DNA from: Phenylobacterium sp.
GTDB taxonomy: Bacteria > Pseudomonadota > Alphaproteobacteria > Caulobacterales > Caulobacteraceae
Direction: 5' to 3'
Assembly (NCBI RefSeq): GCF_016793285.1
Contig: NZ_JAEUMO010000201.1
Span: forward strand, 1 to 33,772
Length of the DNA: 33,772 bases
A program made the translations under genes and the position numbers. The notes beneath the pieces were generated by a model. It was given only the letters and a program-made list of their open reading frames with translations. It was not told the origin of the DNA and made no database searches. Position 1 is the first letter of the stretch, and the number at the start of each line of letters is the position of its first letter. This document shows, piece after piece, positions 7,407 to 9,591 of this stretch.

Positions 7407-7655
7407 ATGACCGCGCGGCCCAGCGAACCGATCACCATCCGCACGTCCAGAGTCCAGGAGATCGACGCGCTCGCGGCCGCCACGGACCGCTCGCGGAACT
7501 ACATCGTCAACCAGGCCATCGAGCAGTACCTCGAAGCCAACGCCTGGCAGGTCGAGCGCATCCGCGAAGGCGTCGCCGCCGCGCGAGACGGGCGCGTGAC
7601 CCCCGCAGACGAGGTCTTCGACGCCATTGCCTCCAGGCACGGCTGGACTCGCTGA
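7407..7655 (+). CDS. ParD/CopG-like ribbon-helix-helix antitoxin
   Basis: The 82-residue protein has the ribbon-helix-helix pattern. A short strand reads ITIRTS near residues 8-13, followed by two helices containing RSRNYIVNQAIEQYL. The polar C-terminal tail (about residues 45-82) would wrap the toxin. ATG at 7407 was preferred over 7374 because AAGCGAGG sits a few bases upstream and it places the DNA-binding strand at the usual distance from the N-terminus. The stop codon TGA overlaps the presumed toxin start. The protein should neutralise the ParE-like toxin and repress the pair. The gene is 125 bp from the divergent crotonase start. Confidence 0.85.
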   Translation: MTARPSEPITIRTSRVQEIDALAAATDRSRNYIVNQAIEQYLEANAWQVERIREGVAAARDGRVTPADEVFDAIASRHGWTR

Positions 7656-7954
7656 AGAGAGTCGTCTTCGCCGAGCCCGCGGCGCGCGACCTCGAAAGCA
7701 TCATCGACTACATCGCCTTGGACAATCGTTCAGCGGCCGAGGGCGTCTACCGCGCCATCGTCGAAGCCGCCCAGAGGCTCGCGCAGTTTCCGGAACTCGG
7801 GCGGCCGGGTCGGCTGCCGGGCATGCGCGAACTCGCCGTGGCCCGCCTGCCCTACCTCATCGTCTACGAGGCGGATCGCCAGGCCGTCACCATCCTGGCG
7901 GCATTCCACACATCGCGCGATCTGGCGCGGGCGCTTCGCGAGCGCCGCCCCTGA
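7652..7954 (+). CDS. ParE/RelE-family toxin (CTG start inferred)
   Basis: The frame encodes a ParE-like toxin with PAARDLESIIDYIALDN near the N-terminus. A central FPELGRPGRLPGMREL block and a C-terminal LPYLIVYEADRQAVTILAAFH strand pair complete the RelE/ParE fold. ParE members poison DNA gyrase, whereas RelE members cut mRNA; the GRPGR...RE pattern favours the ParE side. No ATG, GTG or TTG lies at the family's normal N-terminus. The first ATG in frame (7718) would delete the first helix. A CTG at 7652 overlaps the antitoxin TGA as CTGA and gives a normal 100-residue protein beginning KRVVF after the start. The gene may be active with this rare start or may have been silenced by start-codon loss. 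Confidence 0.78.
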   Translation: MKRVVFAEPAARDLESIIDYIALDNRSAAEGVYRAIVEAAQRLAQFPELGRPGRLPGMRELAVARLPYLIVYEADRQAVTILAAFHTSRDLARALRERRP

Positions 7955-7967
7955 ACCCCGCCGCCGA

Positions 7968-8498
7968 TCAGCCGACCGCGACCAGCTCGCGCCGGTAGCG
8001 CTTCCAGTTCTCGACGTAGTGGGCCGAGCCCAGGGCCACGCGGGCCGCCTGTTCGGGCGAGAGTTCTCGGACGACCTTGCCGGGCGCGCCCATGACGAGC
8101 GAGTTGTCCGGGATCTCCTTGCCCTCGGTGATCAGGCAGTTGGCGCCGATCAGGCAGTTCTTCCCGATCTTGGCCCCGTTCAGCACGATCGAGCCGATGC
8201 CGATCAGCGAGCCGTCGCCGATCTCGCAGCCGTGAAGCATCACCATGTGGCCGATGGTGACGTTGGCGCCGATGGTCAGCGGCGAGCCGGTGTCGGTGTG
8301 GCAGACGCTGCCGTCCTGGATGTTCGAGCCCTCGCCCACGATGATCGGGTCATTGTCGCCACGAAGTGTCGCACCCCACCAGACCGACGCGTTCTTCTTC
8401 AGAATCACGCGCCCCATAACCGCGGCCGTGGGAGCAATCCAGTATTCGTCATCGTTCGGTAGCTCAGGTGTCACATTGCCTAAGTTGTAGACAGCCAA
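7968..8498 (-). CDS. Gamma carbonic anhydrase-like hexapeptide-repeat protein
   Basis: The 176-residue product is a left-handed beta-helix protein with repeated hexapeptide turns (for example [18 protein letters not shown]). Three histidines, H67, H84 and H89, match the metal-binding arrangement of gamma-class carbonic anhydrases, with the HxxxxH pair preserved. Related proteins YrdA, CaiE and PaaY share the fold and their activity is often weak or unproven, so carbonic anhydrase activity is an inference. Translation appears to start at TTG 8498, with AGAGGGA about 9-12 bases upstream. The gene is divergent from the PhoH leader and converges with the parE-like toxin, 13 bp away. Confidence 0.9.
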
Positions 8499-8531
8499 TT
8501 CCCGATCCCTCTTCTTTCCGCCAAGCCCCCT

Positions 8532-8558
8532 TTAACGACTCGTAAAGGACGCTACCCT
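8532..8558 (+). promoter_or_regulatory. Housekeeping-type promoter of the PhoH leader
   Basis: TTAACG at 8532-8537 and GCTACCCT at 8551-8558 are separated by 13 bp. This resembles the Caulobacter sigma-73 consensus TTGACGS, 10-14 bp, GCTANAWC. It would start RNA near 8565. Confidence 0.5.
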
Positions 8559-8564
8559 CATTCT

Positions 8565-8805
8565 AGTCGGGCGATTCGAGAGGGCGAAAGCCTTCCCGAA
8601 AGCCGCCGCGGAGGTTTCGCCTCCGCGTCTCGCGCTGGACGGGGCGGATGGCGCCGAGTTTGTTGTTCCACCGGGTCGTTTCGCCCGGAACCGCAGACGA
8701 AACCGGGCCCCCCGGCTTTTCTTCCGGGCGCTCGGCAAGCGGACTCCGCCACAACCGTTCTCTCCCACCATTCGAAGGGCGCTCCCACGCGGGACGCCCT
8801 TTTTT
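8565..8805 (+). ncRNA. Candidate structured leader RNA or sRNA upstream of the PhoH gene
   Basis: The 328-bp gap between 8498 and 8827 lacks a credible gene but is dense with paired segments. A hairpin GAGGGC/GCCTTC closes a GAAA tetraloop (8580-8595). An 8-bp stem CGCGGAGG/CCTCCGCG has a five-base loop (8607-8627). A long-range stem GGCGGA/TCCGCC (8643-8648 with 8745-8750) encloses GCCGAG/CTCGGC (8653-8658 with 8731-8736), which encloses CCGGG/CCCGG (8671-8675 with 8684-8688). The RNA would finish at the terminator at 8775-8805. It could be an attenuated leader of the downstream ATPase gene or a free-standing small RNA. I do not recognise a known class: the conserved cores of tmRNA, RNase P RNA and SRP RNA are not visible. 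6S RNA cannot be excluded by eye. Confidence 0.5.
8775..8805 (+). terminator. Rho-independent terminator just upstream of the PhoH start
   Basis: AAGGGCG (8775-8781) pairs perfectly with CGCCCTT (8795-8801). After one bulged C, TCCC (8783-8786) pairs with GGGA (8791-8794) around the loop ACGC. A run of six T follows (8800-8805). It works only in the plus direction and lies 21 bp before the PhoH ATG, where no plus-strand gene ends upstream. Confidence 0.85.
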
Positions 8806-8826
8806 CTTGCCCCCTGAGGAGGCCTT

Positions 8827-9591
8827 ATGAGCAAGCGGGCTCTGAAGCGACAAGTGCGCGAAGGCGCGTTCGACGCCGGTCAGTTCCAAGGGGACGACAA
8901 GATTCGCCGGTTGCCGGTGGATCGGGGCTGGTCGCCCCTGCAGCACCACAACGACGACCGTGAGCAGGGCTACCTCAAGACCATCAAGGCCAAGTCCGGG
9001 GGCCAGCAGCAGCTCCTGGACGCCATCGACGCCAAGAATCTCGTCCTGGCCCTGGGGCCGGCCGGCACCGGCAAGACCTACCTCGCCATCGCCAAGGCCG
9101 TGGAGGCCCTGGAGAGCGGCCGCGTGGGCCGGATCGTGCTGTCCCGCCCCGCGGTCGAAGCCGGCGAGTCCATCGGCTTCCTGCCCGGCGACGCCGAGGA
9201 CAAGCTCGCGCCCTACCTGCGCCCGCTCTACGACGCGCTGTCCGACCGCCTCTCCATGAAGCGGGTCCGCGCCCTGATGGCCGAGGGCGCCATCGAGATC
9301 GCGCCGGTGGGCTTCATGCGCGGCCGCACGCTGAACAACGCCTTCGTGGTGATCGACGAGGCCCAGAACTGCACCTACACCCAGATCAAGATGCTGCTGA
9401 CCCGCCTGGGCTGGCACTCGACGATGGTGGTGACGGGCGACCCCGACCAGTCGGACCTGCTGCCCGAGTTTTCGGGGCTGGGGCCGGTGGCGAACAGGCT
9501 GGAAGAGGTGAGCAACATCGCCGTCGTCCGCCTGGCCGACCGCGACATCGTCCGCCACCCGCTGGTGGCCGAGATGCTGGGCGTGCTCTGA
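8827..9591 (+). CDS. PhoH family P-loop ATPase
   Basis: The 254-residue protein carries a Walker A motif GPAGTGKT at residues 77-84 and a Walker B VVIDEAQN near 175-182. A later TGDPDQSD block is also present. Together these mark the PhoH helicase-like ATPase core. A basic N-terminal region of about 55 residues precedes the core. PhoH proteins are linked to RNA metabolism and phosphate or stress responses, but the role of stand-alone copies is unsettled. It is not next to ybeY here, so it is not the classic phoH-ybeY copy. A strong GAGGAGG lies 5 bases before the ATG, and the terminator above implies that expression requires readthrough or antitermination, or that the gene has a second promoter. 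Confidence 0.92.
   Translation: MSKRALKRQVREGAFDAGQFQGDDKIRRLPVDRGWSPLQHHNDDREQGYLKTIKAKSGGQQQLLDAIDAKNLVLALGPAGTGKTYLAIAKAVEALESGRVGRIVLSRPAVEAGESIGFLPGDAEDKLAPYLRPLYDALSDRLSMKRVRALMAEGAIEIAPVGFMRGRTLNNAFVVIDEAQNCTYTQIKMLLTRLGWHSTMVVTGDPDQSDLLPEFSGLGPVANRLEEVSNIAVVRLADRDIVRHPLVAEMLGVL

Follow-up and report, generated by a model that had tools for sequence, protein, structure and literature searches.

A conserved reading frame across an intrinsic terminator suggests transcription attenuation ahead of phoH in Caulobacterales

The region directly upstream of phoH in the analysed stretch of Phenylobacterium DNA (the window, 33,772 nucleotides) is probably a leader-peptide transcription attenuator of this gene. 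Sequence comparison supports an upstream open reading frame (uORF), its openness across an intrinsic terminator in any phase, constraint on a Pro-Pro-Gly motif, a covarying terminator hairpin and linkage to phoH (Table 1). Judged in this way, a non-coding RNA is not the best reading of the interval, which holds an ORF that a preliminary description of the same DNA had missed. A purely functional RNA or a new riboswitch fits poorly with a stretch that, from 8648 onwards, reads as an ORF by its conserved start, its Pro-Pro codons and its openness.

Table 1 Features of the phoH leader and its surroundings, in window coordinates
Feature	Position	Strand	Basis
Gamma-carbonic-anhydrase-like gene, divergent	7971-8498	-	score under the family's curated cut-off
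Promoter-like hexamers, -35 TTTAAC (8531-8536) and -10 GCTACC (8551-8556), 14-nt spacer	8531-8556	+	sequence; loose pattern in relatives
CGATTCG element with GANTC site, near position +9 of the expected transcript	8572-8578	+	kept in relatives
Hairpin with GAAA loop	8580-8595	+	fold; some pairs changed on both sides among 28 relatives
GC-rich hairpin, 9-pair stem in the window fold	8607-8627	+	both-side changes, A2 columns 57-61 with 71-75 except column 58
Shine-Dalgarno-like GGACGGGG for the uORF, within a predicted hairpin loop	8637-8644	+	sequence, fold
uORF of 60 codons, from an ATG to a TGA that overlaps the phoH ATG, spanning the terminator	8648-8830	+	open frame, relatives
Codons for Pro21-Pro22-Gly23 in the uORF, a stall motif of the EF-P type	8708-8716	+	Pro-Pro-Gly counts in relatives
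Intrinsic terminator within the uORF, stem 8777-8799 with bulged C, T6 8800-8805	8775-8805	+	sequence, covariation, folds
Shine-Dalgarno GAGGAGG of phoH	8816-8822	+	sequence
phoH, PhoH-family ATPase, 254 aa	8827-9591	+	PF02562 match

The uORF and its Pro-Pro-Gly codons

We fetched 80 phoH loci with their flanks and used 76 of them together with the window (77 sequences); the other four (L058, L086, L093 and L097) were dropped because their upstream DNA was too short. The loci nearest to that of the window are from Phenylobacterium. An ORF could be named at the same place in all 77 sequences, with the start placed manually in 13. Midway along the leader, GGACGGAG or a similar stretch is followed by ATG (39 sequences) or GTG (38), and CGGAG, CGGGG or a close form precedes the uORF start in 75 out of 77 loci. 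As a side observation, two loci (L140 and L163) have, by eye, a Pro-rich leader frame upstream of phoH without a clear ATG or GTG, where ATC follows GGAG.

Comparing reading frames, we found the uORF frame free of stop codons through the whole T-run in 73 out of 74 loci, as against 49 and 47 for the other two frames. After thinning to at most 75% identity, the uORF was open through the T-run in 40 out of 41 loci and the other frames in 29 and 24. The corresponding Fisher p values, 7e-10 and 2e-5, treat loci as independent, and GC-rich DNA often keeps frames open, as in 96 of the 148 control frames. Three loci (L108, L110 and L111) are absent from the 74-locus count because the T-run pattern failed there; they were restored in the 77-locus counts, which put the uORF open across the terminator in 76 out of 77. 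The one exception (L100) closes before the hairpin, 59 nt ahead of phoH.

The T-run falls in phase 0, 1 or 2 of the uORF in 26, 27 and 24 of the 77 sequences, and on a quick phoH tree its phase changed at least 21 times. Because the phase varies, the terminator stretch is not conserved for a peptide; it is its readability by a ribosome that is kept. For the same reason, we dropped the idea that the T-run is conserved as Pro-Phe-Phe codons.

Upstream of the hairpin, the uORF carries a codon-position signal. In codons 14-25, mismatches at positions 1, 2 and 3 numbered 512, 633 and 1,120 (217 pairs, 60-97% identity), and 30 disjoint nearest pairs gave 118, 121 and 182 over codons 2-26 (p 9e-5). 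No third-position excess was seen in codons 2-13, in codons 27-46 or upstream. BLOSUM scores of changed residues (-0.75 in the uORF frame versus -1.20 and -1.24 in the others, with -0.85 in an upstream control frame) were weak and left unused. The uORF stop lies at -16 to +1 of the phoH ATG in 63 out of 77 sequences and the frame runs into phoH in 13; as stop and start overlap, translation is probably coupled too. In nine of the 77 (L067, L080, L081, L082, L087, L089, L103, L107 and L109) the uORF stays open and shares its reading frame with phoH, which could give a PhoH with an N-terminal extension.

The constraint on codons 14-25, together with a stop at or near the phoH start, would also suit a uORF whose product is a functional small protein, with its translation coupled to that of phoH and the hairpin as a side feature. 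We consider this very unlikely, because species differ in the phase of the C-terminal half, which may be any of the three, whereas compensatory changes preserve the hairpin.

Pro-Pro-Gly belongs to the stall motifs that EF-P relieves. EF-P acts at consecutive proline codons (PMC5021804). Within the first 40 codons, Pro-Pro-Gly occurs in 59 out of 77 uORFs and in only 6 and 8 of the other two frames; in the thinned set the counts are 31 out of 44 versus 2 and 4. For any Pro-Pro, they are 72 out of 77 versus 30 and 50. The control frames in these comparisons were counted uncut, past their first stop. Eighteen of the 77 uORFs have no Pro-Pro-Gly and five have no Pro-Pro in the first 40 codons, so a stall would not be needed everywhere.

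The terminator and the structured 5' part

By eye, all 80 fetched loci have a hairpin with a T-run no more than about 60 nt from the phoH ATG. In an alignment of 40 thinned loci (A1), 97.5% of the cells of the terminator hairpin are paired and 4 out of 10 pairs have changes on both sides. None of 500 shuffles reached this paired share or these both-side changes, and 56 reached the number of further pair types. A1 is without 4 of the 44 thinned rows (L039, L043, L044 and L098), whose hairpins differ in spacing or in having longer loops. The intrinsic terminator of the preliminary description is present in the window, with compensatory changes in relatives both in its hairpin and in the 5' part. 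That description had put it 21 bp before a Shine-Dalgarno sequence: the Shine-Dalgarno sequence is there, starting 10 nt after the T-run, and 21 is instead the distance from the T-run to the phoH ATG.

A terminator pattern scan did not list the 8775-8805 hairpin, in our opinion because of its bulge. The scan gave a single site, at 8703-8715, and this count of 1 does not exceed the shuffle mean of 1.2. A second terminator-like hairpin, with CTTTTCTTCC, lies in the uORF at 8703-8725 and is by eye not kept in relatives.

Folding free leaders, we obtained a terminator probability of at least 0.5 in 41 out of 43 thinned leaders and below 0.5 in two (one of the 44 thinned rows, L088, was left out). 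Accordingly, no competing antiterminator is predicted in these 43 folds, which leaves a ribosome on the hairpin itself as the plausible way to block termination. The earlier suggestion of a premature-termination switch controlling the ATPase fits.

The sign of such a switch could in principle be the opposite, with a ribosome stalled at Pro-Pro-Gly rearranging the RNA and causing read-through, as reported for the Salmonella mgtP and mgtL leaders; Pro-rich leader ORFs are described as acting in this way in mgtCBR and mgtA (PMC5021804). With a ribosome masked over Pro-Pro (assumed footprint), the terminator still had a probability of at least 0.5 in 37 out of 40 leaders, the masked edge lying 29 to 74 nt (median 38.5) from the hairpin, which makes read-through by rearrangement highly improbable in our view.

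At the 5' end, the preliminary description had named a Caulobacter-style promoter. Its hexamers are in the sequence and, presumably, follow the style of Caulobacter sigma-73; the loose promoter pattern occurs in 68 out of 77 aligned loci versus 13% of mononucleotide shuffles. A scan for E. coli sigma-70 promoters found none. The GANTC within CGATTCG, which we take to be a CcrM-type site, is present at this place in 76 out of 77 loci, the anchor of the place being itself defined mainly by the same motif, and a -10-like GNTA sits 21 nt ahead of the element in 63 out of 77. CGATTCG may belong to a cell-cycle promoter (GcrA/CcrM) or, alternatively, be a motif of the RNA. GATTCG is also seen in part of the class-level loci; by a hand tally uncorrected for kinship, it lies ahead of phoH in 9 out of 17 class-level genomes with full-length GcrA versus 1 out of 11 in which GcrA is split or absent. 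We made no use of a long-range pairing between GAUUCG and the uORF start, as no pair in it had changes on both sides.

The stems reported earlier, including one with a GAAA tetraloop, are likewise in the sequence and conserved. The RNA from 8560 to 8810 folds at -119.7 kcal/mol (z -2.71), and 2 out of 200 shuffles were equally good. In the 5' part, 10 out of 31 predicted pairs have changes on both sides in alignment A2, which comprises 28 close relatives picked for alignability and leaves out 11 of the 39 ATG-start rows. A single RNAalifold structure for all 77 sequences failed, with just the terminator and a handful of isolated pairs left in it; structures for sub-groups and for A2 were successful.

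Searching the RNA families of Rfam, we found none at its curated cut-off in the window or in eight relatives. An identity with 6S RNA, which had been raised as a check, was rejected: the only RF00013 match of the genome lies on another contig (C87). The covariance model built from A2 gave exactly one match in each of 61 out of 118 searched genomes, all of which share the genus code of the window; the filters of this search were stricter and lost weak matches. Among the fetched loci outside its build, the model matches the leaders of 41 out of 59 (E up to 1), with one stray match on the minus strand.

A stable fold and several covarying hairpins are what a non-coding structured leader would offer, that is, a riboswitch-like aptamer with a terminator, in which the uORF would be chance openness in GC-rich DNA. 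Against this stand the persistence of openness over at least 21 phase changes, the codon-position signal and the concentration of Pro-Pro-Gly in mainly one frame, as well as the lack of a predicted competing antiterminator and of an Rfam match at cut-off; we therefore regard a riboswitch-like leader as quite unlikely.

The leader might also yield a small RNA by termination, with phoH served by occasional read-through, as for UpsM (PMC5089854); its own promoter and terminator would speak for this. The 3' part has a weak match to the suhB/mmgR small RNA (RF00519; 25.6 bits, E 0.0036), which we rejected as an identification: the score is below the 41-bit cut-off, and the matched single-stranded part varies among relatives by eye. 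As a small RNA would also leave the uORF unexplained, we think it unlikely as the whole account. It and the attenuator are not mutually exclusive, and a released 5' fragment could act as a small RNA.

Genomic setting and reach of the leader

The leader is placed between the divergent gamma-carbonic-anhydrase-like gene and phoH. The earlier statement that no plus-strand gene ends upstream is true locally: the nearest plus-strand candidate, a ParE-like frame, ends at 7954, beyond the divergent gene. This frame (7652-7954, plus strand; PF05016, 62.6 bits) begins with CTG, is without an early ATG, GTG or TTG start, and comes after a gene for a ribbon-helix-helix protein (PF01402; 7374-7655, plus strand). 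The two are likely to be a parDE-type toxin-antitoxin pair. The plasmid collection gave no match.

With searches by leader DNA and the A2 model, phoH adjoined the leader in all 40 loci found (30 genomes including that of the window); the leader DNA query extended 4 bases into phoH. Beyond the family, we turned to 47 genomes that belong to other families of the order and took their best 30 phoH loci. By an eye tally, a hairpin with a T-run and a Shine-Dalgarno-led ORF open across it were present in 14 out of these 30 (L114, L117, L120-L126, L134, L135, L139, L141 and L142), and the ORF includes Pro-Pro in 9 out of the 14. The full layout was not found in the other 16: three (L119, L130 and L140) have the hairpin and no ORF by the rule of the script, one (L118) is listed with a short ORF only and was uncounted, and the remaining 12 are without one or both features. 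The class-level loci (L144-L172) are outside these counts.

PhoH proteins are widespread ATPases whose role is unclear. Two phoH matches occur in 39 out of 47 genomes of the order, one similar to that of the window and a second, more distant one, which may be of the ybeZ type. YbeZ, another PhoH type, binds YbeY and has a proposed role in 16S rRNA maturation (PMC5101352).

Proposed mechanism and known systems

Translation of the uORF, termination in vivo, the direction of the response and its dependence on EF-P are inferred in the mechanism that we propose. RNA polymerase would start near 8562, transcribe the structured 5' part and then the uORF, and meet the intrinsic terminator inside it. 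A ribosome on the uORF close behind the polymerase would cover the hairpin, so that transcription proceeds and phoH is made. If no ribosome starts, or if it is delayed at the Pro-Pro-Gly codons, some 60 nt before the hairpin, the hairpin would form and the transcript would end. That the terminator starts 127 nt into the uORF of the window counts against this explanation. More tentatively, we see it as a fair possibility, short of an even chance, that Caulobacterales phoH is under a natural EF-P-tuned attenuator: the leader ORF would be selected to be readable through the terminator in whichever frame indels leave, Pro-Pro-Gly would set the timely arrival of the ribosome, and PhoH output would report the clearance of polyproline stalls.

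Literature searches, which covered open-licence papers, brought up none that deals by title or abstract with a phoH leader ORF, and the main text of a Caulobacter genome-architecture paper (PMC4117421) has no mention of phoH. If a stall motif in the leader ties PhoH to ribosome progress, this would hint at a function of the protein in translation. The selection signature, a terminator crossed by a frame that is open whatever its phase, could guide searches for further attenuators of this kind.

In pyrBI-type attenuators, UTP is sensed through a U-rich tract that precedes the terminator and at which RNA polymerase pauses. As in E. coli pyrBI (pyrL leader), the ORF of the phoH leader overlaps an intrinsic terminator and ends at or after it. 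In pyrL, an intrinsic terminator lies inside the leader ORF, before the structural gene, and a close ribosome suppresses termination (PMC5021804, PMC4824070); at E. coli tR2, too, a close ribosome suppressed termination, which was maximal with the stop codon more than 27 nt away (PMC4824070). The gene itself is a different one, however, and the phoH leader has a covarying structured 5' part. Unlike pyrBI, it is also without a conserved U-rich pause tract, and Pro-Pro-Gly is conserved instead: by eye, CTTTTCTTCC at 8716-8725 of the window is not kept in aligned relatives. We therefore do not file the phoH leader as a member of the pyrBI type, although it would work like one.

Polyproline stall codons upstream of an intrinsic terminator in the same ORF also recall an E. 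coli reporter in which PPPPPP was placed before the pyrL intrinsic terminator and loss of EF-P raised termination (PMC5021804). The phoH leader would be the natural counterpart of this EF-P and intrinsic-termination construct, and a conserved one, with a presumed dependence on EF-P. In Salmonella mgtL and mgtP, proline codons of a leader ORF are likewise described as tuning downstream transcription (PMC5021804), and conserved Pro-Pro codons are found in the phoH leader as well (Pro-Pro in 72 and Pro-Pro-Gly in 59 of the 77). By contrast, those leaders use alternative RNA stems, mgtL acting via Rho, whereas no alternative stem is predicted in the phoH leader.

Two alphaproteobacterial systems are comparable. 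UpsM of Rhodobacter sphaeroides, a small RNA derived from a 5' UTR, shares the long leader with a Rho-independent terminator before protein genes; it is described as non-coding (PMC5089854), whereas the phoH leader has a conserved ORF across the terminator. In the DUF1127 attenuator of Sinorhizobium meliloti, translation of a uORF controls premature termination, as we propose for phoH, and that uORF is proposed to report translation efficiency (PMC12218461). Its translation is needed for down-regulation, and the gene, the codons and the site of action differ from those of the phoH leader.
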